From: Aquimarina spinulae
GTDB taxonomy: Bacteria > Bacteroidota > Bacteroidia > Flavobacteriales > Flavobacteriaceae
Assembly: GCF_943373825.1 (NCBI RefSeq)
Contig: NZ_CALSBP010000002.1
Span: forward strand, 2,159,501 to 2,223,500
Direction: 5' to 3'
Length of the DNA: 64,000 bases
This document shows, one piece after another, positions 49,092 to 64,000 of the stretch (position 1 is the first letter of the stretch; each line of letters starts with the position of its first letter). The position numbers and the translations under genes were made by a program. The notes below the pieces were generated by a model. That model was not told the origin of the DNA and ran no database searches. It was given only the letters and a program-made list of their open reading frames with translations.

Positions 49092-49287
49092 TTTTGTTTT
49101 TAATGATGTTTATGCAGCTATCATAAGTAAGCTACAATTTCTCATTCCTAACCTTCTACTATACTTTTCATCCATAAAATTATATGTAACAAAAACATTA
49201 TTAATAAAAAAAATCCCAGTCCCGAAAAATGAAACTGGGATATCGTATTCTTGACCTATGAAATCAATCTCATATACCATCTGTATC

Positions 49288-52200
49288 ATGAAAAATACTA
49301 TACTCTTCGTCTTATTAACCCTCACAGGGTGGCATCTTAGTGCCCAGGTAGTACTATCAGACAAGAACTATGTACATACTACAGTTCCGCAAACAGCCTT
49401 GACGATTGCAGAAATGGAGAATGTAAACTGCTCTAATATCAATGATATCGATAGGGCTATAGAGAGTGTTACTTATTTTGATGGATTAGGTAAGCCTATT
49501 CAGGAAAGAGCCATCAAAGCCTCACCAGATGGTAAAGATATTGTGACTCATATCGAGTATGATGCCTATGGCAGACAAGCAAAGCAATATCTACCTTTTG
49601 AGGCAGACAATACGATAGGGAGTTATAAAGAGATCAATATTAATACGGATATCAATCAATATTATAAGGATACCTATGCTAATGATTTTCCTGGGATTAG
49701 TGATCTTACACAAATTAACGCCTATTCAGAAAGTATTTTTGATAAATCTCCTCTTAATAGAGTAGTAAAAATTGGCGCACCTGGTACAGCCTGGAAAGCA
49801 AACCCCAGTAGTGATGCAGATCATGCTATAAAGACAGATTGGTATACTAATAAAGCTAATGAAGTGGTGTATTTTAAAGTTGATTTTGCTAATCCAAATG
49901 ATACTGAGGCCCCTAGTCTGGTAAAGGATGGGCACTATGCCGTAAATCAATTGCACATAACTATTACTCAGGATGAGAATTGGACTCCGGCAGAAGGTAA
50001 CAACCATACGACCAAAGAGTACAAGGATAAACAAGGTAGAGTGATCTTAAAAAGAACCTTTGCCAATGTTGGAGCGCCGAGCGTAGTCGAGGCGCACGAC
50101 ACTCATTATGTTTACGATAGATTTGGGAATTTAACCTATGTAATCCCTCCAAAAGTAACCACTAGTGATGGCGTGAGTCAGAGTGAGCTTGCCGAATTGT
50201 GTTACCAATACAAGTACGATCAGAGAAATCGCCTTATCGAAAAGAAAATTCCTGGTAAAGACTGGGAGTATATTGTCTATAATAAACTAGATCAACCGAT
50301 TCTAACTCAGGATGCCAACCTAAAAGCAGATAATGCCTGGCTCTTTACCAAATATGATATTTTTGGCAGGGTTACCTATACGGGTAAGATTACCGATAAC
50401 CGAGATAGAAAGACCATACAACAAGCTGTGAATACAGAATCTACACTATGGGAACAACGAGATGTTGCTTCCCAGATCGATGGGACTACCATCTATTACA
50501 GCAACACGGCATTCCCAAAAACAAACCTGGAGTTACATACCATCAACTATTATGATGATTATGGCTTTGATCTTGCAGGATTAACCAATCCCGGTACTGT
50601 ATATGGCGAAACTATATCAGATCAAACCAAGACACTACCTACAGGAAGCAAGGTACGAGTACTTGATACTTATGATTGGATCACTACCGTTACTTGGTAT
50701 GATAAAAAAGCACGACCTATATACGTAGCTAGTAAAAATGAATATCTTAACACTACAGATATCATAGCAACCCAATTGGATTTTGTAGGTAAGGTAGAAC
50801 AAACCAAAACTACTCATACCAAAGACAATACTACACCAATTATAACCATAGATACCTTTACCTATGATCATATGGGTAGGATGCTTACCCAACGACAATG
50901 TATAGAAGATACTTCTGGGGTCAATTGTACTGGTAATACAGGAGTTACACCAGCAGTAACCTTATCACAACCGATTACCCAAACCACAACTACTGTAGCG
51001 GGTAATACCATTACCTTATCTAATGGATTTCATTTTGCAGCTACGGCTAGTACTTCTTTCCTTGCTAAGATCCAGAACGAGGAATTCCCGGGAGAATTGA
51101 TTGTATCTAATACTTATGATAAGTTAGGGCAACTAACTTCTAAAGAAGTTGGTGGTGGATTACAAGATGTACATTATACCTACAATGTACGAGGATGGTT
51201 AAAAAACATCAATCAGGATAGTTATGATGATAATGACCTGTTTGATTTCACCATCAATTATAATACCCCACAACATGGGGCTACAGCTTTATATAATGGA
51301 AATATCTCTGAAACAGCATGGAAAACTCAAAGTGTAAACCCTAATCCTCCGAACAATCCGGTAAGTAGTTTCTATTTGTATAGTTACGATGCACTTAACA
51401 GGATTGTAAGTGCAACAGATAATACTGGCAATTATTCGATAAGCAATATCACCTACGACAAAACAGGAAATATCCTTTCCTTAAACCGAAAAGGGAATCT
51501 TAATGAAGCAGCTACTTCTTTTGGAGATATGGATATGCTAGCATACACCTATGATAGCGGTAATAAACTCTTAAGAGTGACTGATACCGGGAATACGACT
51601 TTTGGTTTTAACGATGGCACCAATACCAATGATGACTATGCGTATGATGCTAATGGTAATATGACCCAGGATCAAAACAAAGGGATTATAGGGATCACTT
51701 ACAATCATTTAAACTTGCCTAAAACAGTAACGGTAAATAATGCTTCTCATAATGGAAATATTACCTATATTTATGATGCCACTGGGGTAAAACTAAAAAA
51801 GATTGCAACAGAGGGAAGCTCTTTAATTACTGAGTATGCCGGCAATTATATCTATAAGAATGGTACACTAGAATTCTTTAACCATGCGGAAGGAATCGTA
51901 GAGCATGAAACCGATGGATATAAATATGTATACCAGTTTAAAGATCATTTAGGAAACATCAGACTCTCCTACAAAGATGCGGATAAAAATGGTTCTATAT
52001 CCCAAAGTGAAATTATTGAAGAGAAAAATTATTATCCCTTTGGACTACAACATCGAGGTTACAATTTTGCAGTGAATGGGAGCAAACATAACTATGGTTT
52101 TGGAGGGAAAGAAGAACAGAATGAGCTTGGTTTAAATTTATATGATTATCATGCTAGAATGTATGAACCATCAATTGGAAGAATGATGAATATTGATCCT

Positions 52201-52902
52201 CATGCAGACAGTTATTATGGAATTAATCCTTATAACTATACGCTTAATAATCCTGTTTTGTTAATCGATCCCGATGGGAAAGATACTGTGATTTCAATAG
52301 AAGGTAATACCATAACTGTATCTACACAAATTTATATTCATGGTAGCGGAGCTACTCAAGAAGAAGCAAATAAAATTCAAAAGAGCATTCAATCACTTTT
52401 TGGAAAGCATAATGAGTTTAAATACACAGATGAAGATGGTAACGAGTTTGACGTAAACTTTGAAACATCAGTAGATATATATGATGAAGAAAACACAGAA
52501 TTAGCAGAAGGTGATAACCTTATTGAAGTTAAAAATGAAGAAGGAAGATCAGAAGTAAGTGAATTAACAGGAGATACAGGTACTTGGTATTCTAAAGAAA
52601 AAACAGCTGGAGAAAATTATGGGATATATCCGCATGAATTTGGACATTTGGTTGGATTAAAAGATAGATATTCAGTTTTACACTCCCTAGTTGGAATAAA
52701 TAAACCTGATAAAAATTGGGAAGATAATTTTATGGCAGATGGGGCCACTATGAATGTCCAACAACGTAATATTGATGGAATTGTAAAAGGGGCAGTAAAA
52801 AGTTATAACAGGTACAAAGAGCAATATAGTGATCAAAAGAGTTCGAAAAAACCATACAAATACATAAAAAATACATCTTTTAATAGAATTAGAGGAAATT
52901 GA
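49288..52902 (+). CDS. RHS-repeat protein with metzincin-like C-terminal domain (candidate polymorphic toxin)
   Basis: The protein is 1204 residues from the ATG at 49288, where the signal peptide MKNTILFVLLTLTGWHLSAQ begins (an upstream ATG at 49258 adds ten residues). The N-terminus has a DUF6443-like region (SVTYFDGLGKPIQERAIKAS), followed by many YD/RHS repeats (YVYDRFGNLTYVIPP, YTYNVRGWLKNI, YDYHARMYEPSIGRMMNIDP). The RHS core ends at the conserved IDPDGKD near residue 997. The last 207 residues differ in type and carry PHEFGHLVGLKD (HExxHxxGxxD at His1116-Asp1126) with a possible Met-turn at Met1149. That predicts a zinc metallopeptidase, typical of variable toxin tips in RHS proteins. 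It is exported, but the delivery route is unclear. Confidence 0.88.
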   Translation: MKNTILFVLLTLTGWHLSAQVVLSDKNYVHTTVPQTALTIAEMENVNCSNINDIDRAIESVTYFDGLGKPIQERAIKASPDGKDIVTHIEYDAYGRQAKQYLPFEADNTIGSYKEININTDINQYYKDTYANDFPGISDLTQINAYSESIFDKSPLNRVVKIGAPGTAWKANPSSDADHAIKTDWYTNKANEVVYFKVDFANPNDTEAPSLVKDGHYAVNQLHITITQDENWTPAEGNNHTTKEYKDKQGRVILKRTFANVGAPSVVEAHDTHYVYDRFGNLTYVIPPKVTTSDGVSQSELAELCYQYKYDQRNRLIEKKIPGKDWEYIVYNKLDQPILTQDANLKADNAWLFTKYDIFGRVTYTGKITDNRDRKTIQQAVNTESTLWEQRDVASQIDGTTIYYSNTAFPKTNLELHTINYYDDYGFDLAGLTNPGTVYGETISDQTKTLPTGSKVRVLDTYDWITTVTWYDKKARPIYVASKNEYLNTTDIIATQLDFVGKVEQTKTTHTKDNTTPIITIDTFTYDHMGRMLTQRQCIEDTSGVNCTGNTGVTPAVTLSQPITQTTTTVAGNTITLSNGFHFAATASTSFLAKIQNEEFPGELIVSNTYDKLGQLTSKEVGGGLQDVHYTYNVRGWLKNINQDSYDDNDLFDFTINYNTPQHGATALYNGNISETAWKTQSVNPNPPNNPVSSFYLYSYDALNRIVSATDNTGNYSISNITYDKTGNILSLNRKGNLNEAATSFGDMDMLAYTYDSGNKLLRVTDTGNTTFGFNDGTNTNDDYAYDANGNMTQDQNKGIIGITYNHLNLPKTVTVNNASHNGNITYIYDATGVKLKKIATEGSSLITEYAGNYIYKNGTLEFFNHAEGIVEHETDGYKYVYQFKDHLGNIRLSYKDADKNGSISQSEIIEEKNYYPFGLQHRGYNFAVNGSKHNYGFGGKEEQNELGLNLYDYHARMYEPSIGRMMNIDPHADSYYGINPYNYTLNNPVLLIDPDGKDTVISIEGNTITVSTQIYIHGSGATQEEANKIQKSIQSLFGKHNEFKYTDEDGNEFDVNFETSVDIYDEENTELAEGDNLIEVKNEEGRSEVSELTGDTGTWYSKEKTAGENYGIYPHEFGHLVGLKDRYSVLHSLVGINKPDKNWEDNFMADGATMNVQQRNIDGIVKGAVKSYNRYKEQYSDQKSSKKPYKYIKNTSFNRIRGN
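50074..50095. repeat. REP-like fragment inside the RHS coding sequence
   Basis: GCGCCGAGCGTAGTCGAGGC plus GC (50074-50095) has GCGCC/GGCGC ends around GAGCGTAGTCGA. It resembles the palindromic intergenic element at 60700, which carries GAGCGTATCGAAG. It lies in frame and encodes about ten residues (GAPSVVEAHD) just before the conserved TYYVYD-like motif. Confidence 0.4.
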
Positions 52903-53448: not shown

Positions 53449-53650
53449 TACTCCTCCAGCTTTTTTATGAAATACGAGGGGTATATCCCTGTTTTTTTGT
53501 AGAACGTTTTAGAAAACGCCTCTGCGGTATTAAAACCGACCTCTTGCGCAATAGCTTTAATCGTATATTTTCTGAATCTTGAATCAGATTGTAGTTTCTC
53601 TACTACAAAATCGATACGTAGGTCATTGATGTACTGACTTAACGTTTTCT
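53448..53650 (-). pseudogene. Fragment of an AraC-type regulator gene (C-terminal HTH only)
   Basis: On the minus strand, from about 53650 to the stop at 53448-53450, an open frame of about 67 codons encodes the end of an AraC family HTH: QYINDLRIDFVVEKL, IKAIAQEVGFNTAEAFSKTF and YKKTGIYPSYFIKKLEE. It is highly similar to the C-terminus of the regulator at 54109 (FYKKTGIYPSYFIKQLEKGK). No N-terminal part precedes it, and a terminator hairpin takes its place. It is a remnant of a duplicated gene. Confidence 0.85.
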
Positions 53651-53666
53651 GTTTGCAACAATAGAT

Positions 53667-53706
53667 AAATAATCGTCCTGGCTTAGATACGCCAGGACGA
53701 TTATTT
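53667..53706 (-). terminator. Terminator downstream of the precursor peptide gene
   Basis: A perfect 16-bp stem AAATAATCGTCCTGGC (53667-53682) and GCCAGGACGATTATTT (53691-53706), with an 8-nt loop, is flanked by A/T runs. On the minus strand it lies about 60 bp after the precursor stop, so it would end that transcript. Confidence 0.92.
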
Positions 53707-53765: not shown

Positions 53766-53981
53766 TTATCTATGCGCAACAAGATCATCAATATCTGTTT
53801 GATTACCGCCACATTGAGGAGGTCTTTGATGGCTTCGGCAACCTGGTCCAGATTGATCACATCCATTTATTGCTACAGTTTCCATACTCCCAGCTTTTAT
53901 CTTCGACAGTTTATGCATTGTTAATAATGTAATGTTCAGTTTTTTTAGCCCCAGCTTCTTTGTTTGATGTTGATTTTTCAT
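53766..53981 (-). CDS. Candidate lanthipeptide-type precursor peptide
   Basis: The 71-residue peptide has a leader of class I lanthipeptide type found in Bacteroidota: KKLGLKKLNITLLT near residue 8, then LSKIKAG ending at Gly31. Cleavage after Ala-Gly by a C39 peptidase would leave a 40-residue core with three Cys (41, 48, 57), three Ser and two Thr. The core has the order INGCDQSGPGCRSHQRPPQC, then GGNQT. The SGPGC motif resembles the PGC-containing ring B of nisin. It is encoded beside two dehydratase genes, a regulator and a C39 exporter. No LanC gene is visible. A promoter, two palindromes and a terminator frame the gene. Confidence 0.85.
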   Translation of the reverse strand: MKNQHQTKKLGLKKLNITLLTMHKLSKIKAGSMETVAINGCDQSGPGCRSHQRPPQCGGNQTDIDDLVAHR

Positions 53982-54006
53982 GAGTTTTTATGTTATGAGT
54001 TCAAAA

Positions 54007-54041
54007 CAAATGTAGGGGATTACCTTAAAAAAATAAGGTAA
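54007..54041 (-). promoter_or_regulatory. Precursor-gene promoter with an operator-like palindrome
   Basis: On the minus strand TACATTTG (54007-54014) is a perfect -7 element, giving a 5' leader of about 20 nt. A perfect 8-bp inverted repeat, TTACCTTA (54020-54027) and TAAGGTAA (54034-54041) with an A6 loop, covers the -20 to -41 area, where a regulator would block or help RNA polymerase. There is no T run at its end, so it is not a terminator. Confidence 0.65.
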
Positions 54042-54055
54042 AAAAAGGAAGTGCC

Positions 54056-54080
54056 AGTCTGTATTCTAAGAAATCAGACT
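54056..54080. promoter_or_regulatory. 25-bp near-perfect palindrome upstream of the precursor gene
   Basis: The half-sites AGTCTGTATTCT (54056-54067) and AGAAATCAGACT (54069-54080) are mirror images except for a swapped TA/AT pair. It lies about 75-100 bp upstream of the precursor start and 28 bp after the regulator stop. The first half-site recurs exactly upstream of the dehydratase gene at 59193. Confidence 0.6.
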
Positions 54081-54108
54081 ATTAACATTCTCATAATCAA
54101 TGATTTGC

Positions 54109-55815
54109 CTATTTACCCTTTTCAAGCTGTTTGATAAAGTAAGAAGGGTAAATTCCCGTCTTTTTGTAGAAGGATTTAGAAAAAGCTTCGGTAGTATTAA
54201 ATCCAATTTCGCGAGAAATCGCTTTGATGGTATATAATCTAAATTTGGATTCGCGCTTTAGTTTTTCGATCACATAGTCAATACGCAATTCATTTATATA
54301 CACACTAAAGCTTTTTTTCTTATAGGTATTAATGATCTTAGATAAATATTTAGAATTGGTCTGCAATTTTTTGGCCAACTCCCCGGTAGTAATATTCGCC
54401 GATAAATAGCCTTGTTTATCTTCAAACTTTTGCAAGCCTTCTAAGACTGAGTTTACAATCTCCTCAGAAATCCCTATCGCCTCTGGTGTGGCAGGATGCT
54501 TATCCGAAATTTCTTTTAGTGCGGTAGCATCAAGGGTTGGTGCATGCATCAATTCTTTAAAACGTTTTCTATACCTTACATTTTTAATATAGATCAACAC
54601 TACAACAATGATCAGTATTATAGCAAAAATGACGGCAATGATAAATTTTATACTCGTCTTTTTCTCTTTTTGCTCTAAAACATTAATTAAATTCTGCTTT
54701 TCTTCTAATAGTTTTGGAGTATCATACTCCTGCACTATTTTTTTACTCAGGTTTTTATAATTGGTATCCAGGATACTATCTACTCTAAATAACTTATCAA
54801 TATAATATAACTGTTTATTTTTATCATCTATCGATTTATAATGATCGATCAATAGTTCATACCCTTCTCGCATTTCCATAGAAACAAAACCCGAACGCTC
54901 ATAGGATTGATCAATTTTTAATAAGTACTCCAGGTGCTTTTCGTTTTCACCAAATTCTTTATACAATCTTGCCAGGTAAACATATGCATTAACCAATGAT
55001 TCCTCTACTCTTGGCTTATATTTCTCAATAAATGGTAATGCTTTGTTAATACTATCTAGTGATCTTTGATATTGTTGCTTATAGTATAAATTAATCCCTT
55101 CATGCAATACAAAAAAAGGATAAATATCTAAACTATCTTTAAGCGATTCTTGTATTCCTTTGGTATTATAAAAAGTGGCAGAATCTCCATACTCTAACTT
55201 TCTATAGGTATCTGCTAAATACCATATAGTTCCCAAATGCCCTATCCCACCTATATTATTATCTTCTTCATAGTCTATAACCTCTTTAAAGATTACTACA
55301 GCATCATCAAGTTCTCCAATTTCTCTTTTTATACTGCCTATATTATGTTTGGTTAGGTAGTAAAAGTCTTTATTATTAGATGCATTAGCATACTTTAAGG
55401 CCGCCAAATAACTATCCAATGCTTTAGAATAATCTCCTATCTGTCTATATTCTCCTCCTTTAATAGAATATGGCACTGCAGGATATAACTTATGGTTTAA
55501 ATCTTTACTTACCGCGATTGAGCTATCCAAATATGCAATTCTTTCAGGAAATTTGTTTTTAAACATAAATACCGCAGATCGATATGCTTTGGCAAGAGAG
55601 AGTGGGTCATTTTTCTGTTTTGCTTTGACTAATAACGTATTTGCATAAATTTCATGCCTAATAGAATCATTATAATACTTAAAGCCTAGCTTTTCAATCT
55701 CATCAAATGTTTTATTCTTTAACGAATCCGGGATGGTAAACGTACCCGTATTCTGGGCAACCCCCGGGATCATATATAAAAAAAAGATACTAACGATAAG
55801 TACTAGTTTTTTCAT
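54109..55815 (-). CDS. TPR-containing membrane protein with C-terminal AraC-type HTH
   Basis: The 568-residue protein has a signal-like N-terminus (1-20), about 360 residues of TPR-like helical repeats (SYSIKGGEYRQIGDYSKALDSYLAALKY), a membrane segment near residues 393-413, and a C-terminal AraC HTH (residues about 465-568: GYLSANITTGELAKKLQTNSKYLS, YINELRIDYVIEKLKRESKF, IKAISREIGFNTTEAFSKSFYK). Such proteins join an extracytoplasmic TPR sensor with a cytoplasmic DNA-binding domain. It overlaps the LanB C-terminal-domain gene by 4 bp, so it is translated with the biosynthetic genes and is a likely regulator of them. The palindromes at 54020 and 54056 are candidate targets. Confidence 0.9.
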   Translation of the reverse strand: MKKLVLIVSIFFLYMIPGVAQNTGTFTIPDSLKNKTFDEIEKLGFKYYNDSIRHEIYANTLLVKAKQKNDPLSLAKAYRSAVFMFKNKFPERIAYLDSSIAVSKDLNHKLYPAVPYSIKGGEYRQIGDYSKALDSYLAALKYANASNNKDFYYLTKHNIGSIKREIGELDDAVVIFKEVIDYEEDNNIGGIGHLGTIWYLADTYRKLEYGDSATFYNTKGIQESLKDSLDIYPFFVLHEGINLYYKQQYQRSLDSINKALPFIEKYKPRVEESLVNAYVYLARLYKEFGENEKHLEYLLKIDQSYERSGFVSMEMREGYELLIDHYKSIDDKNKQLYYIDKLFRVDSILDTNYKNLSKKIVQEYDTPKLLEEKQNLINVLEQKEKKTSIKFIIAVIFAIILIIVVVLIYIKNVRYRKRFKELMHAPTLDATALKEISDKHPATPEAIGISEEIVNSVLEGLQKFEDKQGYLSANITTGELAKKLQTNSKYLSKIINTYKKKSFSVYINELRIDYVIEKLKRESKFRLYTIKAISREIGFNTTEAFSKSFYKKTGIYPSYFIKQLEKGK

Positions 55816-56681
55816 GATACAGTATAGCTTACTTTTGTTTTTTGGTATCGTACTAAAAAATCATAACACACCAACTCATAAAATCGTTGTTTGGATCTAA
55901 AGGCACGGTTTACCAGCATATGTATATAGCTGCTTAGCAAATCGTCTAATGGCATTTCTAATTGGTTATCTTGCTGTGCTTCCATAATCTTTTGTACTAC
56001 TCCTAATGATTGTTTTGCTTTGTGATCCAGCAAATCATCTAAGACTTTATAATCTTCCTGCATAGAAGTTGTCTCTAAAAAAGAAGAAAGCTTGCTTTTT
56101 AACCCCCTATATTTTTTATCTAATTGTTTATTTAGTCCCTTATCGGCATGAAATTCTCGCTTAAATCCCATGCTGTTTCGGGCTACCAACTCTAGTTTTT
56201 GTTGTTGTTCATAGCCAAAACTGTTTAACAATCTATCGATTGCTTTTACTACAAATAAAAAGTACAATTCTTCATCTTCGATCAACGCTATGGCATCCAG
56301 TAACATGGTACTGTCATAAAAAAACAGAGCTTCAGAAATCCCTATGGTATTTGTACCATAGCGTTCTAATTCTCGTATATAGGTATCGGTTTGCAGTTTA
56401 TATACTACCCGCTGTTCTACATAATGTTGCATCGCAGCATTAATCTGCAGGATCACGGTTCCTATCGCTCGTATATCAGGTAAACGAAATCGTATCCTAA
56501 TATGAAAATCGGGATCTCCGTAACGTATAAAAAACCAGGAGTCGATCAGACCTTGTTCCAGCAACTGCGCAGTGAGTGGTTTTATGGTTTCGGTAAGGAG
56601 TACATCAGACGTACGAGCACCACAATATATCTTATAATATAGCCACTCATCCCCCAGTATATATGTTCTTTTTGTACTCAT
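55812..56681 (-). CDS. LanB C-terminal domain protein (thiopeptide-type bacteriocin biosynthesis, elimination step)
   Basis: The 289-residue protein matches the separate C-terminal domain of lantibiotic dehydratases: YILGDEWLYYKIYCGART near the N-terminus, WFFIRYGDPDFHIRIRFRL near residue 50, and QRVVYKLQTDTYIRELERYG. In class I systems this domain eliminates glutamate from Ser/Thr-glutamyl esters to form dehydroalanine or dehydrobutyrine. In most lanthipeptide loci it is fused to the N-terminal glutamylation domain, but here it is encoded separately, 99 bp after it, with a REP-like hairpin in between. It overlaps the regulator gene by 4 bp. Confidence 0.92.
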   Translation of the reverse strand: MSTKRTYILGDEWLYYKIYCGARTSDVLLTETIKPLTAQLLEQGLIDSWFFIRYGDPDFHIRIRFRLPDIRAIGTVILQINAAMQHYVEQRVVYKLQTDTYIRELERYGTNTIGISEALFFYDSTMLLDAIALIEDEELYFLFVVKAIDRLLNSFGYEQQQKLELVARNSMGFKREFHADKGLNKQLDKKYRGLKSKLSSFLETTSMQEDYKVLDDLLDHKAKQSLGVVQKIMEAQQDNQLEMPLDDLLSSYIHMLVNRAFRSKQRFYELVCYDFLVRYQKTKVSYTVS

Positions 56682-56719
56682 GTAGTATCCCCCTTGTTTT
56701 GTGTTTTTACTGCTTTGTC

Positions 56720-56764
56720 ATTCCTGCCCTTCGATTTTACTCAGGATAAACTAAAGGCAGGAAT
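56720..56764. repeat. REP-like inverted repeat between the two LanB genes
   Basis: ATTCCTGCC (56720-56728) and GGCAGGAAT (56756-56764) form a perfect 9-bp stem around a 27-nt loop. It lies between the LanB N- and C-terminal genes and shares the frame of other intergenic palindromes in this region. Confidence 0.65.
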
Positions 56765-56780
56765 CCAAAAATGATCTTAA

Positions 56781-59066
56781 TTATACCTCAACTGCTTTTA
56801 ATGCTTCGGTGTTCTTTCTTGTCTGCTCTAGTTTTTCTTTATTATACAGCGAGATTACAAACTGGTTGGTATAACTCATACCTTCTTGCTGTACGATACC
56901 TTTTTGCTCATTAGACTGTCCTTCTTCTGCAAATAAAAACTCTTCTAATACGCATGTTTTTTTATTTTTTATAGTGTCTAACCACATGTTTATCGAGTTT
57001 GTATTCTCCATATGGATCAGCAAAGTATTATCTCCATCTATCAATTGTACCATCTTTGGTATATTATGTTTTGCTCTCCAGGTGGATATCATTGCGATCC
57101 TGTTGTTTTCACTATTTTCTTTTAGAAAAAGCAGGTCTGCCATAGTGATCTTCCATCGGGCTTTTGCCAATATAAACTCTTTATACACTACCCTGGGTAA
57201 AAAAGTATGCTTCTCTAACGCTTCTCCCCAATAAAACCCAAGGCCTGGTCGACCACCTTGCTTTTGTACATCACATAAGAAATGATATACCGGCAATGCA
57301 TTAGCACTATAATTATGGGCATTGGTCAAACGAGGAATAATTTCTTTATTAAGTGTTTTAGAGCGTAATATAATACGACCATATCGCACCGATATCATTA
57401 AATCTGATATAGATACCTGTTGCTCTATTGGTACATTAGATTTTCCTAAATACGGGATTTCATACTCACGTATGGTTGCCCTGCGAATCACATTACCCGT
57501 CCTGGATTCTGGTAAATGAACAACTTCGGCCAGGATCTGGTTTTGATACATTTCTTGTTCTATCGCTGCAATACCTTGTACATGTTTTAAAATATCCTCG
57601 TTTCCGGTAGAAAACCGCCCTAACAGATTTGCCGCAGAGGATCCTCCTACAGAAGAAAATATCATCTTTTCTTCACCATCAACCGTTGCAATTTGAGCAA
57701 TTGTCGACATAGTATCGGGCAAATCACCCCAGTCTAATTCGAGATGTTCAACATCTTTATCTTCGAGCGATAGCGTATATTGGTTTTCCTTATGTATATG
57801 TTGTAATTTCTTATTTAGAATTTCCTGTACCGGGGTCCAGTGCATTTCTTGTTTTGAAGCCGGTTTGGAAGGAATATACAGATCGTCTAAAAAAGAAGTA
57901 GAGTCACTGGCATCCTGATGCTGAAGGTATCCAATACCTACCTCGGTATCTAAAACAGTAGCCAGAGGAATTTCCTGAGTTTCGTATCGTTTTGTAAATG
58001 CATCTTTAAACCGTTGTAAGTGCGTTTCTGATGAAGCGCTATTCATTCTATTTAACAGCTCTAGTGCTCGCGTTAACTTATATCCCCATCGTATATTTAA
58101 TTGATTAGACTGTGCCTGGGTATACATATCGGTCTGAAAAAGGTATTTTAACTCGAAAGGTGTTTCTAGCTTTGCTACCCGCTCACTAAGTTTTAGGTAT
58201 TCGCCAGGTCCATTACCCAGTTTCTGATCTATTTGTTCCAGAAATTTTTTATAGAAATCAATCTCTGTTAGTATAGCATCTGTACCTTCTATCTGACTCA
58301 AACAGGTTTCTAACTGTTCTAAAAAATCATCTCCGGTTACAGAGGGTTCTATCTCACTCACCAGGATTTGATTGTCTATCAATTCATCTATAAATTCTGA
58401 AGCTTCTTCATGGGTAATTTCGTCATCAACCAGAAGAGAAGCTAATTCGTTTATCTTTTTACCAGTCCTGGCACTCTCGATTATAGCTTCGAGATACTCT
58501 GCATAGGCTACCGCCTCGATAGAGTGTTCTCGTCTATTATATTTGTTATACTTGTATTCTATATATCGATATTGATCTCCGATTTTATACAGGCTATTAT
58601 TGGTATACCACAATAGCTGTTTTTTGATGACTTCTTCTTTGGCCATCTTTTGCGAGAAAGCCACCAAAAAGTTCATATCAAACCGCGTTTGTCTTTGATG
58701 AGTATCATAATTAGACAATTCTATTGCTGTAGTCTTGCTAAAGGTTCCTATACTACAACCGGCAAATAACCCAAAGGGAGTACAACGCGAACTCATCCTG
58801 GATAGATATTTTAACAAAGATGATTCTAATCGTTTCTTCTTTTTAACATCTTTGAGTTGTCCCGACAGCCATTTCTCTATTTCAGAAAACAGTTCTGGTG
58901 ATGCCAGAAAAATAGCTTCTCTAATGCTGTCATTTTTCCAGACATCTTTAAACATTTCTACAGGTATCTCCTTCTCTTTGGTAAGGTTATGATAAAAATC
59001 TAATGGTAAAAGGGGAGTTCTTAGACAAAACTGATCAAAGAAGGTATATGGATTTTTTAGTTTCAA
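56781..59066 (-). CDS. LanB N-terminal (lantibiotic dehydratase, glutamylation domain)
   Basis: The 761-residue protein has the N-terminal LRTPLLPLDFYHNL, the YLSRMSSRCTPFGLFAGCSI motif near residue 92, IRRATIREYEIPYLGKSN, ISVRYGRIILRSKTLNKEII and the C-terminal WRAKHNIPKMVQLI. This is the part that esterifies Ser/Thr of the precursor with glutamate from glutamyl-tRNA. The C-terminal elimination domain is absent and lies in the next gene. The start is TTG at 59064-59066; an in-frame stop (TAG) lies 18 bp upstream and no upstream ATG fits, and the next internal Met is at residue 39, after conserved sequence. It is first in the biosynthetic operon. Confidence 0.93.
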   Translation of the reverse strand: MKLKNPYTFFDQFCLRTPLLPLDFYHNLTKEKEIPVEMFKDVWKNDSIREAIFLASPELFSEIEKWLSGQLKDVKKKKRLESSLLKYLSRMSSRCTPFGLFAGCSIGTFSKTTAIELSNYDTHQRQTRFDMNFLVAFSQKMAKEEVIKKQLLWYTNNSLYKIGDQYRYIEYKYNKYNRREHSIEAVAYAEYLEAIIESARTGKKINELASLLVDDEITHEEASEFIDELIDNQILVSEIEPSVTGDDFLEQLETCLSQIEGTDAILTEIDFYKKFLEQIDQKLGNGPGEYLKLSERVAKLETPFELKYLFQTDMYTQAQSNQLNIRWGYKLTRALELLNRMNSASSETHLQRFKDAFTKRYETQEIPLATVLDTEVGIGYLQHQDASDSTSFLDDLYIPSKPASKQEMHWTPVQEILNKKLQHIHKENQYTLSLEDKDVEHLELDWGDLPDTMSTIAQIATVDGEEKMIFSSVGGSSAANLLGRFSTGNEDILKHVQGIAAIEQEMYQNQILAEVVHLPESRTGNVIRRATIREYEIPYLGKSNVPIEQQVSISDLMISVRYGRIILRSKTLNKEIIPRLTNAHNYSANALPVYHFLCDVQKQGGRPGLGFYWGEALEKHTFLPRVVYKEFILAKARWKITMADLLFLKENSENNRIAMISTWRAKHNIPKMVQLIDGDNTLLIHMENTNSINMWLDTIKNKKTCVLEEFLFAEEGQSNEQKGIVQQEGMSYTNQFVISLYNKEKLEQTRKNTEALKAVEV

Positions 59067-59192
59067 GAGGTGTTGGTATTATTCTATACTTATTTAACAG
59101 GATATAAATATACTATTTTCTGTTTTAAGATTTCTTTTAGATAATTATAACAAAACTATATGATAATCAATTGATTACCATTTTAAACTAAA

Positions 59193-59235
59193 AGTCTGTA
59201 TTCTGGGAATCCCGTGTTTGTTTTCAGGAATCACG
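59193..59235. promoter_or_regulatory. Regulatory region between the dehydratase and exporter genes
   Basis: The 12-mer AGTCTGTATTCT (59193-59204) is identical to a half-site near the precursor gene. It is followed by two direct repeats, GGAATCCCG (59206-59214) and GGAATCACG (59227-59235), spaced 21 bp, about two helical turns. The 372-bp gap (59067-59438) between divergent genes is otherwise without recognised features. AraC-type proteins typically bind such direct repeats. Confidence 0.5.
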
Positions 59236-59438
59236 ACTTCTTTCCCTTGTTTTTGGGGCTTTATCAAAGGTATATTTGATCAAATCAAAAAACGTAGCAG
59301 TCGCTTTAGTTTCACTCAAAAAATCAAAACTTATGATACACGTACTGATCAATTTCATTTCACAATTCACCTCTTTTCTGATGGATCATTTTATCATCAT
59401 GTATCAATCTATTGTTAACGTTTAAAGAATATTCCAAT

Positions 59439-60614
59439 ATGAAACAGTTATTTCCAAAAGAAATTATAGAAAACACCATAGAGGTACATCAGTTTGAACA
59501 TAGTCGTAAAAGTAAGATGATCTATACAACGATATTAGTTGCTTTTATTATTGCATTGGCACTATTACCGTTCATCAAAGTCGATATCTATACTACGGCA
59601 AGAGGAATGCTAAGGCCTAGTAAAGAACGAATTGCTATTACTCCGCTTCAATCAGGTAAAGTTGTTTTTGTAAATATGGTGGATAATCAAAAAGTAAATA
59701 AAGGTGACACCTTGCTTATGACGAACACTTCTGTAGTAAAGGAACAAATCACCCGATCCTCGACACAGATTAAAGAGACCGAACAGTTTATTACAGATTG
59801 CGAATATCTGATCAATACAGCTAAGCCGAAATTCAACAACATACAATCGGCACGTTACCAAAAAGAATATCTGTACTTCACTCAAAAAATACAGGAGCTA
59901 AGAACCCGATTTGAAAAAACAAAAATCGATTACTTGCGTAACCAAAAACTGTTTGAAAAAGGAGTAGTCGCCAAAGTAGATTATGAGAACAGTGCTTTTG
60001 AGCATCAACTGGCATCGAGTACACTGCAACAATATCGAAAACAACAAAAAAATAACTGGCAGGCCACAGTAACAGAGTACCACAACACCATAAGAGAATT
60101 AAAAGGTGGATTAACTCAACTAAAACAGAATCAAAAAGAGCTGTTGATTACGGCACCAATAGATGGGATTCTTAAAAATGTTTTGGGTATCGAGCCGGGT
60201 AGTTTAATTGCAGGAGGATTAACTATTGCCGAAATATCTCCCGATACCGGACTGGTTGCAGAATGTTACCTCTCGCCATCAGATATAGGATTGGTGGGTC
60301 GGAATAAATCGGTGAATTTTCAAATCGATGCTTTTAACTATAACCAATGGGGATTAGCTACCGGAAAAATTCTGGAGATCAGCAAAGATGTAGATATCAT
60401 TAATGAACGACCTGTTTTTAAAGTACGCTGTGCTATAGATCAGGGGCATCTCGAACTTAAAAATGGTTTTAAAGGGAGTTTTAACAAAGGGATGACACTT
60501 AGCGCACGATTTCAACTTACGCAACGCACCTTGTATGAATTACTTTATGATAAGGTAGATGACTGGTTTAACCCATCGAGTCCCACTATAGCAGAAGTAG
60601 TGAATGTCGAATAA
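59439..60614 (+). CDS. HlyD-family secretion adaptor protein
   Basis: The protein has 391 residues from the ATG at 59439 (a TTG at 59412 upstream is less likely). A membrane segment (about 25-45) is followed by a lipoyl-like strand (GMLRPSKERIAITPLQSGKVVF), a long alpha-helical hairpin, and the second half of the lipoyl domain (ITAPIDGILKNVLGIEPGSLIAGG), ending in a beta-barrel. HlyD proteins link an inner-membrane exporter to an outer-membrane channel. It precedes the C39 ABC exporter and should work with it to export the mature peptide. No TolC-like outer-membrane gene is in view. Confidence 0.93.
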   Translation: MKQLFPKEIIENTIEVHQFEHSRKSKMIYTTILVAFIIALALLPFIKVDIYTTARGMLRPSKERIAITPLQSGKVVFVNMVDNQKVNKGDTLLMTNTSVVKEQITRSSTQIKETEQFITDCEYLINTAKPKFNNIQSARYQKEYLYFTQKIQELRTRFEKTKIDYLRNQKLFEKGVVAKVDYENSAFEHQLASSTLQQYRKQQKNNWQATVTEYHNTIRELKGGLTQLKQNQKELLITAPIDGILKNVLGIEPGSLIAGGLTIAEISPDTGLVAECYLSPSDIGLVGRNKSVNFQIDAFNYNQWGLATGKILEISKDVDIINERPVFKVRCAIDQGHLELKNGFKGSFNKGMTLSARFQLTQRTLYELLYDKVDDWFNPSSPTIAEVVNVE

Positions 60615-60699
60615 ATGAATTGTGAAGTTGAGAAATACGAAAGCGATAAGCTAGACGATAGAGGTCTGGTGTAATGGTCGTCAAGTTGAACTTTTAATT

Positions 60700-60769
60700 G
60701 TCAGTCTGAGCGTATCGAAGACATCTGAATACTCAAATTTGAAAGCACTTCGACAAGCTCAGTGTGACA
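60700..60769. repeat. Palindromic intergenic element
   Basis: The left arm TCAGTCTGAGCGTATCGAAG (60701-60720) and the right arm CTTCGACAAGCTCAGTGTGA (60748-60767) are imperfect inverted copies around a short spacer. The rest of the 348-bp gap (60615-60962) between the HlyD and ABC genes has no other recognised feature. The arms resemble the in-frame fragment in the RHS gene. Confidence 0.7.
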
Positions 60770-60962
60770 TAGAATTTTAAATCTTATTCTTGACTAATCT
60801 AGATTGGAGATTGATAGTTCGAAGTAAAAAATATAAAATAATGAATATGAAAGTGATAAGTAAAAAACCCTGTTACACTCTTTAAAAACAGCGTTTTGTA
60901 AGTGAGACAAAAGATGCATAAGTCTCAACACTCACTACTCTTATCTCAATACTAAATAAATT

Positions 60963-63146
60963 ATGGCTAAAACAAAAATAAAACAACACGATATCACTGA
61001 TTGCGGTGCGGCTTGCCTGGCATCAATTTCGGCACATTATAAATTGCAACTGCCAATCGCACGTATTCGACAGTTTGCAAGTACCGATAAAAAAGGAACC
61101 AATGTATTGGGATTAATCGAAGCTGCCGATAAACTCGGGTTTGAAGCCAAAGGAGTACGTGGGGATCTGGATAGTTTGTTTAAAATCCCTAAACCTGCCA
61201 TCGCTCACGTGATCGTGAATGAAAAATTACATCATTATGTAGTGATCTACGAAGTAACTAAAGAGCACATCAAAATAATGGATCCGGGAGATGGTAGGTT
61301 TCATAAAAAAACACATGAAGAATTTAATAAAGAATGGACAGGAGTATTGGTACTACTACTACCAAAAGAAGATTTTACAACAGGTAACGAAAAAGTATCG
61401 GTTTATAAACGATTCTGGTTTTTATTAAAACCGCATAAAGGAGTATTGACACAGGCTTTTGTTGGGGCAATCATCTATACCTTATTAGGGTTCTCTACCT
61501 CGATATACATCCAAAAACTCACTGATCATGTTTTTATGGGTACCAGTACCAAACTGCTTAATCTGTTAGGAATTGTTATGGTCACATTATTACTTTTAAA
61601 ACTAATAGTAGGAGCATACAAAGATGTTTTCCTGATCAAAACCGGGCAACAGATCGATTCGCGACTCATTCTTGGGTATTATAAACACCTGTTAAAACTA
61701 CCACAGCAATTTTTTGATACGATGCGGGTCGGAGAGATCATCTCCCGAATTAGTGATGCTGTAAAAATCAGAAACTTTATCAATGGAGTAGCCTTAAACC
61801 TAACCGTTAATATTCTAATCCTGATATTTTCTTTTGGATTGATGTTTACCTACTATTGGAAACTGGCGCTGATCATGCTGGCGATTATTCCAATATATGC
61901 GATCATATATGTAATTACGAATAAACTAAACAAGCGTACAGAACGAGGGATTATGGAAAAATCTGCAGATCTGGAGAGTCAGTTGGTAGAATCTCTAAAC
62001 GCTGTAGGAACTATCAAAAGATTTGGTCTTGAAGGCTTTGCCAATATTAAAACAGAAACCCGCTTTATTGGGTTATTAAAAATAGGATACAAGTCTGCAT
62101 TAAACAGTGTATTTTCTAACTCCAGTACCGGTACTATTGCACAATTATTTACCATCATCCTATTATGGAGTGGTTCTTTTTTTGTAATTCAAAAAGAAAT
62201 TACTGCCGGAGAACTTATGGCTTTTTATGCGATTATAGGATATTTTACCAATCCTGTTGCCAGTTTAATCAGTGCTAATAAACAGATCCAAAATGCATTG
62301 ATTGCAGCAGATCGTTTGTTTGAGATCATGGACCTGGAACGCGAAGAAGGGGAGCAGAAAATAAAACTCACAAAAGATAGCATTGGTGATATCAATTTCT
62401 CTAGTGTAGGGTTTAGATATGGCTCCAGAGTAGAGGTTTTTAAAGATTTTAATCTTGAGATTCAGACAGGGAAAATCACAGCCATTATCGGGGAGAGTGG
62501 TTCGGGAAAATCTACTCTGATGTCTTTACTACAAAATATCTACCCTATCCAGAAAGGACAAATATCTATAGGAAATCAGGATCTGAAACACATCGAGAAT
62601 GGTAGTCTAAGAGATCTGGTAAGTGTGGTGCCACAAAAAATAGATCTATTTGCCGGTAATGTGATAGACAATATTGCAGTAGGAGAATTTGCTCCAGATA
62701 TAGAGCGCATTATGGAAGTATGTAAAGCCATAGGTATTCTTGAATTTATAGAAAATCTGCCTAATAGCTTTGCTACATATCTGGGAGAAAACGGAGCTAC
62801 CTTATCTGGAGGACAAAAACAACGTATTGCCATTGCCCGAGCATTATATAAAAATCCTGAAGTATTAGTCCTAGACGAAGCTACCTCATCACTGGATAGT
62901 ACTTCTGAAAATTATATCCAGAAAGCAGTACAAAGTCTGCGCGATCAGGATAAAACCATCATCATTATTGCCCACCGATTAAGTACAGTGATTAATGCCG
63001 ATAAAATTGTAGTACTCGAAAAAGGGAAAGTAGTAGAAGAAGGAAATCATGAAGTATTATATGCCCGACAGGAAAAATACTATGAACTATGGCAAAAACA
63101 AATGCCAGTAGTAGATCATATCCCTAAAATAAATGCTGTTGCATAG
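60963..63146 (+). CDS. C39 peptidase-containing ABC exporter
   Basis: The 727-residue protein has an N-terminal C39 protease (HDITDCGAACLASI with catalytic Cys14, then KLHHYVVIYEV with His, and IMDPGDGR with Asp), six membrane segments (about 160-450), and a nucleotide-binding domain with Walker A IGESGSGKSTLM, the ABC signature LSGGQKQRIAIARAL and Walker B VLVLDEATSSLD. The C39 domain cleaves leader peptides after two small residues such as Gly-Gly or Ala-Gly, which fits the AG end of the precursor leader. It would process and export the peptide with the HlyD partner. Confidence 0.95.
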   Translation: MAKTKIKQHDITDCGAACLASISAHYKLQLPIARIRQFASTDKKGTNVLGLIEAADKLGFEAKGVRGDLDSLFKIPKPAIAHVIVNEKLHHYVVIYEVTKEHIKIMDPGDGRFHKKTHEEFNKEWTGVLVLLLPKEDFTTGNEKVSVYKRFWFLLKPHKGVLTQAFVGAIIYTLLGFSTSIYIQKLTDHVFMGTSTKLLNLLGIVMVTLLLLKLIVGAYKDVFLIKTGQQIDSRLILGYYKHLLKLPQQFFDTMRVGEIISRISDAVKIRNFINGVALNLTVNILILIFSFGLMFTYYWKLALIMLAIIPIYAIIYVITNKLNKRTERGIMEKSADLESQLVESLNAVGTIKRFGLEGFANIKTETRFIGLLKIGYKSALNSVFSNSSTGTIAQLFTIILLWSGSFFVIQKEITAGELMAFYAIIGYFTNPVASLISANKQIQNALIAADRLFEIMDLEREEGEQKIKLTKDSIGDINFSSVGFRYGSRVEVFKDFNLEIQTGKITAIIGESGSGKSTLMSLLQNIYPIQKGQISIGNQDLKHIENGSLRDLVSVVPQKIDLFAGNVIDNIAVGEFAPDIERIMEVCKAIGILEFIENLPNSFATYLGENGATLSGGQKQRIAIARALYKNPEVLVLDEATSSLDSTSENYIQKAVQSLRDQDKTIIIIAHRLSTVINADKIVVLEKGKVVEEGNHEVLYARQEKYYELWQKQMPVVDHIPKINAVA

Positions 63147-63225: not shown

Positions 63226-63558
63226 ATGAAAAAAATAGAGCGTCAAATTGAAGTCATAGAACGATTAAATCGGTTGATACGATTAGGAAAAACAGGAACC
63301 CCTGATCAATTATCCGAAAAATTGGAAATCTCAAAAGCATCTTTGTTTCAGATTCTTAGAGTAATGAAACAACTTAATGCTCCTATTGTATTTGATATCG
63401 CATTACAGAGCTATGTCTATGAAGAATCTGTAAACTTTACTTATGGTTTTTATACCCGTAAACTTTATGGAGAAGAAGTACTAGAAGTATCTTCTTATAG
63501 TGCTCAAAGTATTATGATGCAAGTAGATTTTAAATATCCAAGTCTAAGAATAGTATAA
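63226..63558 (+). CDS. Small HTH protein, candidate local regulator
   Basis: The 110-residue protein has an N-terminal helix-turn-helix in VIERLNRLIRLGKTGTPDQL and LEISKASLFQILRVMKQLNA, followed by a beta-like second half (APIVFDIALQSYVYEESVNFTYGFY). It lies 79 bp after the ABC exporter gene on the same strand. A second copy of the same HTH type starts at 63838 (IEMIERIDRLIRL). The pair may regulate the cluster, though the targets are unknown. No family name is certain. Confidence 0.7.
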   Translation: MKKIERQIEVIERLNRLIRLGKTGTPDQLSEKLEISKASLFQILRVMKQLNAPIVFDIALQSYVYEESVNFTYGFYTRKLYGEEVLEVSSYSAQSIMMQVDFKYPSLRIV

Positions 63559-63837: not shown

Positions 63838-64000
63838 ATGAATATTATCATCAAGCAAATCGAAATGATCGAGAGAATTGACCGACTCATACGCCTACAA
63901 GCCACGGGAACTCCAGTAGAATTAGCATCGAGATTAGGGATCTCCAGAGCGCAAACCTATCGGATTATTGATATTATGAAAGAGCTAAATGCTCCTATCA
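63838..64000 (+). CDS. HTH protein, truncated by the window edge
   Basis: ATG at 63838 opens a frame that runs to the window end. The visible 54 residues (IEMIERIDRLIRLQATGTP, LASRLGISRAQTYRIIDIMK) are clearly homologous to the HTH protein at 63226, including the TGTP turn and the ending KELNAP/KQLNAP. It is a tandem paralogue. Its C-terminus and following genes, possibly including a cyclase, are outside the window. Confidence 0.75.
   Translation, partial: MNIIIKQIEMIERIDRLIRLQATGTPVELASRLGISRAQTYRIIDIMKELNAPI

Follow-up and report, generated by a model that had tools for sequence, protein, structure and literature searches.

Among described lanthipeptides, the prochlorosins also have precursor genes that lie away from the gene of their modifying enzyme. 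In the available text of PMC12328550, this class II system combines one modifying enzyme, ProcM, with many precursors that share a leader and carry diverse cores. For class I, the accessible part of PMC7268733 describes several clusters with a split LanB, that of pinensin included, and a genome-mining strategy anchored on LanC with seven genes taken on each side. The chemistry of class I LanA, LanB and LanC from Chryseobacterium and Runella has been shown in E. coli with the native GluRS and tRNA-Glu, according to the excerpts of PMC9993889, and the class I lanthipeptides of Bacteroidota (Chryseobacterium, Runella, Pedobacter) are treated as LanABC sets in the source texts at hand. In some lanthipeptides the gene of the leader protease is unclustered (PMC8960859, available text).

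Here we analysed a window, i.e., the whole stretch of 64,000 nucleotides of Aquimarina spinulae DNA, and its genomic surroundings through genome-wide profile searches that covered 6.24 Mb in three contigs. From gene content and its distribution among relatives, we estimate a probability of roughly 65% that the genome holds a class I lanthipeptide system in which dispersed regulator-precursor modules are acted on in trans by a single LanB and a single LanC. The genome-wide layout, not the split LanB, is the unusual part, and no description of a layout of this kind was found in the literature searched, which lay mostly outside subscription journals. The locus comprises the following features.

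53451..53669, minus strand: second TPR-AraC regulator reduced to its AraC end (remnant; residues 494-566 at 68% identity)
53766..53981, minus strand: LanA-type precursor, 71 aa (family alignment, core composition)
54109..55815, minus strand: TPR-AraC regulator, 568 aa (HTH_18 E 6e-11; sub-threshold TPR matches)
55812..56681, minus strand: LanB elimination protein (SpaB_C / Lant_dehydr_C), 289 aa (PF14028 E 5.2e-68, TIGR03891 E 1.5e-65)
56781..59066, minus strand: LanB glutamylation protein, 761 aa, TTG start likely (PF04738 E 1.4e-152)
59439..60614 (open reading frame from 59412), plus strand: HlyD-type adaptor (HlyD_3 E 2e-10; TIGR01843 below cut-off)
60963..63146, plus strand: C39 peptidase-ABC exporter (Peptidase_C39 E 3e-37, ABC_membrane, ABC_tran; TIGR01193 above cut-off)
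63226..63558, plus strand: small helix-turn-helix-like open reading frame, kept beside the exporter (weak MarR_2 match only)

These genes form two divergent arms, with the LanB pair, the regulator and the precursor on the minus strand and the HlyD and C39-ABC genes on the plus strand. The regulator and elimination genes overlap by 4 bases. The HlyD adaptor more likely starts at ATG 59439, because this start yields 391 aa, the length seen in five of seven close relatives. Sequence inspection of the exporter revealed C14, H91 and D107 along with Walker A and signature motifs. The original prediction had named a precursor, a split LanB, a TPR-AraC regulator, an HlyD adaptor and a C39 exporter at this locus, all of which are borne out, the precursor by its alignment with homologues and the others by strong family matches, and had seen neither LanC nor LanFEG genes, in agreement with our finding that no LanFEG gene is visible in the locus and that neither of the two PF05147 matches in the genome lies nearby. 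Judged by family matches, its broader claim of a RiPP cluster holds as far as the dehydratase (class I LanB chemistry in split form) and the C39 exporter are concerned; a self-contained cluster is not supported, LanC being unlinked and the precursors dispersed. The nearest LanB relatives (93–97% identity) are from Aquimarina, with one MAG at 95% assigned to Bacteroidia. The spacing of the two LanB genes (56682-56780 in the window) ranges from 63 to 526 bp among the closest relatives. A full-length second TPR-AraC copy occupies the position of the window remnant behind the precursor in four loci (L038, L039, L041 and L115). The small helix-turn-helix-like frames beside the exporter are paired (63226-63558 and 63838-64000, plus strand), with two copies in L037-L041 and L115 and one in L048. 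Upstream of the locus, a large RHS-repeat protein with a DUF6443 domain is encoded at 49258-52902 on the plus strand.

PF04738 and PF14028 each have a single match in the genome, namely the glutamylation and the elimination protein, respectively. The glutamylation protein aligns with NisB and with 9g04, and NisB R83, R87, D121, D299 and R464 correspond to its residues R90, R94, D130, D313 and R484, which are invariant across eight LanB proteins. In the elimination protein, which displays the motifs H60-I-R62-I-R64, E106-R107 and H254, residues R62, R64 and R107 align with NisB R784, R786 and R826. In the 9g04 chain, the residues matching its R16 and H254 occupy positions that we take to be NisB R14 and H961; the NisB alignments do not reach those positions. 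Presuming that the aligned NisB residues are the catalytic ones, the key catalytic residues of the LanB proteins, which the original prediction had singled out for such an alignment, are kept, two of them by way of 9g04 only. From their families and residues, the two proteins would dehydrate Ser/Thr of leader-bearing precursors. A peptide aminoacyl-tRNA ligase (PEARL) was considered and rejected, the adjacent gene encoding the elimination protein. A thiopeptide pathway was weighed as well, and no azoline-forming YcaO and no [4+2] enzyme was detected among the cluster proteins scanned, in a genome with one PF14028 protein. The split itself is ordinary, as it is the usual form in relatives and published for pinensin: 62 of 71 LanB matches in the genus lie in frames of 719–790 aa, and a separate elimination gene is present in 79 of 80 LanB loci (L102 being the exception), cut by the contig end in L042 and L104.

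The window precursor consists of a leader that extends to about Gly31 (KAG) and a core of 40 aa with three Cys and five Ser/Thr. It has no Pfam and no NCBIfam match and belongs to a family of 10 sequences (nine other homologues), in which the five with a named organism all derive from Aquimarina. The family alignment shows hardly any variation in the leader and a variable core, in which all three Cys and Ser50 are invariant, Ser44 is conserved at 90% or more, and column 35 is always Ser/Thr, so that three Ser/Thr-Cys pairs are available. A conserved leader combined with invariant core residues indicates that the frame is no chance open reading frame. The leader ends in AG, GG or SG throughout the family, which is what a C39 peptidase needs. 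Cleavage behind the GG/AG motif and export of the product would be the task of C39 exporters. Conservation of the frame alongside the dehydratase genes, which the original prediction had named as a test, turned out to be partial. In the six loci nearest to the window (L037-L041, L115) the precursor immediately follows the regulator, and a different core is found in L048. Inspection by eye of the 26 loci of the LanB clade described below that were examined with enough flank gave no leader-motif candidate near LanB in 9 (e.g., L043 and L045-L047). Precursors are therefore not always LanB-adjacent. With respect to known leader families, the window precursor does not match NCBIfam NF038153 (lant_leader_L1a), and among nine other peptides of this genome and its relatives that were tested one, a dispersed precursor of the genome, lies above the cut-off (25.4 vs. 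22 bits).

The original prediction had pointed beyond position 64000 for LanC; the gene is instead found at an unlinked locus on another contig. The genome contains two PF05147 (LANC_like) matches, one on the same contig as the window (C2), 1.44 Mb from LanB, and one on C3. The C3 protein keeps the WCYG, GLCHG and SHG motifs, assigned as zinc-ligand motifs by their pattern. Besides LanC, its locus holds four precursors, two of them regulator-linked, as well as HlyD, C39 and a DUF4953/DUF5117 metalloprotease, and no LanB. The C2 match is a solitary gene (L007:8817-10172) in which the zinc-ligand motifs are replaced by WTYG and FCNG, and on account of these changes it was set aside as a cyclase. 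With frames of 438 and 455 aa, both LANC_like genes are too short to be LanM, which together with the LanB-type dehydration rules out a prochlorosin system proper. A LanB with both domains, a LanC that is present in the genome but unlinked, and a leader-core precursor with Ser/Thr and Cys are the features of class I found here. The metalloprotease (L006:9292-11703 and relatives) occurs within 1 kb of an unlinked LanC in 13 loci, and one possibility is that it serves as leader protease.

LanBs of the window type group together and have no LanC of their own beside them. In a LanB tree of 91 rows (a quick tree, five identical rows dropped and long branches flagged), a 26-row clade with SH-aLRT 99 contains 23 rows without LanC within 10 kb and 2 undecided rows, and the remaining row adjoins a LanC that belongs to another LanB cluster in opposite orientation. 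Outside this clade, LanC is adjacent in 58 of 65 rows, not adjacent in 6 and undecided in 1. An unlinked LanC of the C3 type is carried by 14 of the 16 genomes of the inner clade, and the clade of such trans-LanC proteins, likewise from a quick tree (SH-aLRT 83 with 15 rows, 91 with 17 rows), has zero LanB-adjacent members. A LanC at least 64% identical to the C3 protein is present in 16 of 66 genus genomes. By rule, 15 of these have a LanB without LanC within 10 kb, and the sixteenth, A. longa, was counted by reading, its nearby LanC belonging to another cluster. The distance can be large; in a single-contig genome (G466) LanB and LanC are 3.68 Mb apart. These co-occurrences suggest that the unlinked C3 LanC closes thioether rings in trans. 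Two genomes with a window-type LanB and without a C3-type LanC, A. muelleri (G461) and the MAG G479, count against the trans reading.

Among the relatives' genomes searched (drawn from 48 of 80 LanB loci), 46 of 47 have a LANC_like gene. LanB is present and no LANC_like match was found in G501 and in the near-complete genomes G455 and G473 of the wider LanB clade, which likewise speaks against the trans reading. The latter two would be accounted for if the LanB lineage made linear peptides bearing Dha/Dhb, for which no cyclase is needed, and the same applies to some precursors near LanBs of the wider clade, whose candidate cores contain no Cys (L051, L150) or one (some loci, including L052 and L141). 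Such a dehydropeptide pathway appears improbable to us, given that the inner clade has kept its unlinked LanC in the proportion stated, with intact motifs in the A. spinulae genome, and that the window core retains three invariant Cys with Ser/Thr partners.

The regulator provides the link to further precursors. The genome encodes 15 near-full-length homologues of it, the window copy included, eight of which are followed on the same strand, 121–234 bp downstream, by leader peptides (nine peptides in total), and seven of which have no leader peptide behind them. When all loci are pooled, a same-strand leader peptide follows 55 of 89 regulators within 500 bp, usually at a spacing of about 130 bp, whereas among the control positions the upstream side of the same strand gave 9 and the other strand gave 0 both upstream and downstream (one cut regulator, duplicate loci and the C3 module of A. 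spinulae, with its regulator cut in L006, were left out of the 89). The eight of 15 in the A. spinulae genome is the unbiased count, because the other loci were mostly chosen around LanB or LanC and many come from related species. From adjacency, each regulator probably controls its own downstream precursor; a search of the regulator-precursor intervals of the eight modules for a common DNA motif returned AT-rich strings only. A leader model built from 29 typed leaders yielded 14 matches in the genome at E<=0.001, the window precursor among them, and 16 at E<=0.01. All of the 14 have Cys in the core, amounting to 35 Cys in 445 core residues compared with 0.47% in seven window proteins, and one core Cys each in L166, L164 and L006 has no Ser/Thr 2–10 residues before it. 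Two of the 14 matches lie behind a TPR-CHAT protein and not behind TPR-AraC. At L189:5792-9813 (C2 ~2135791-2139812), two near-identical leader precursors follow a 1095-aa TPR-CHAT protein of caspase-like architecture.

Six of the dispersed modules, viewed in 19.9-kb stretches, have no homologue of the genome's own LanB, LanC, C39 or HlyD within ~8–10 kb. This counts against an alternative in which a conventional class I cluster making one product no longer has a LanC of its own and the other leader peptides belong to unrelated pathways. In favor of that explanation, precursor, LanB, regulator and exporter have stayed side by side in all six of the closest loci, but leader peptides track the presence of LanB in the genus and the family (see below), and we regard it as unlikely. 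According to the trans reading, the window locus would contribute to a genome-spread system the dehydratase, one exporter, and one precursor together with its regulator. The dispersed precursors, which for the most part have no maturase next to them and follow a TPR-AraC regulator at ~130 bp, are probably served by the window LanB.

Within 66 genus genomes, LanB is found in 50, LanC in 47 and both in 46; LanC is thus present in 46 of 50 genomes with LanB and in 1 of 16 without. Leader matches, up to 37 per genome, occur in 47 of 50 genomes with LanB vs. 3 of 16 without, a comparison that is partly circular because the leader model includes leaders of LanB-bearing genus members. Regulators (E<=1e-40) are distributed similarly (48/50 vs. 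3/16), and leader and regulator counts correlate with a rho of 0.95 overall and 0.92 within the LanB-bearing genomes of the genus. In 397 family genomes, leaders were detected in 19 of 36 with LanB and 1 of 361 without, the lone exception being a 75% complete genome with a stop in the frame. The leader-model search gave no match in the other 17 of the 36 LanB-bearing family genomes, perhaps because the model was trained on the genus. P values for co-occurrence take no account of relatedness, and genomes without LanB are smaller overall.

The same caveat would favor an explanation in which the dispersed regulator-peptide pairs are signalling peptides with no need for LanB, their link to LanB reflecting shared ancestry or genome size. 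TPR proteins act as peptide receptors in other bacteria (PMC10352776, in the part available), and in one genome (G445) a leader match and a regulator occur in the absence of LanB. However, the association holds in genomes of at least 90% completeness (47/48 vs. 1/10) and outside the genus (17/34 vs. 1/360), and the cores are rich in Cys, which renders this explanation very unlikely. Signalling could also be combined with one shared LanB/LanC pair, with each TPR-AraC protein being the receptor for the exported product of its own precursor, so that the lanthipeptides would constitute private, autoinducing signal channels; we put this forward as a tentative possibility. The hydropathy profile of the regulator displays a hydrophobic N-terminus and a single strong hydrophobic span at ~384-416 before the C-terminal AraC helix-turn-helix, which suggests that the TPRs lie outside the membrane and the DNA-binding domain inside.

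Compared with the pinensins of Chitinophaga, which are likewise class I and with which it has the split LanB in common, the A. spinulae system differs in its unlinked LanC and in precursors dispersed behind regulators. With the prochlorosins it shares many dispersed precursors with a common leader, which would here be served by one enzyme, but a class II LanM operates there, and a class I split LanB with a separate LanC, and the pairing of regulator and precursor, are found here. The layout is best read as a putative class I counterpart of the prochlorosin layout. Lanthipeptides with an unclustered protease similarly have a needed enzyme outside the cluster; in the present case it is the cyclase, along with most of the precursors. 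As the parts are scattered over the genome, ordinary gene-cluster searches would see fragments only, and neither LanB loci of this kind nor the dispersed precursors would be picked up by LanC-anchored mining with seven genes per side. If one LanB/LanC pair serves a dozen or more cores, class I would have libraries akin to the class II prochlorosins, and the constant spacing between regulator and precursor makes the role of the peptides and their sensing directly testable.

Export in this region may extend to other peptides. Just past the window, two bacteriocin-type GG peptides are encoded at L005:2478-2891 (window ~65477-65890), one of which matches Bacteriocin_IIc below the cut-off, and the window exporter may also serve them. 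Further along the same locus (L005:3889-5421) lies the gene of a VKOR protein that matches C39 weakly.
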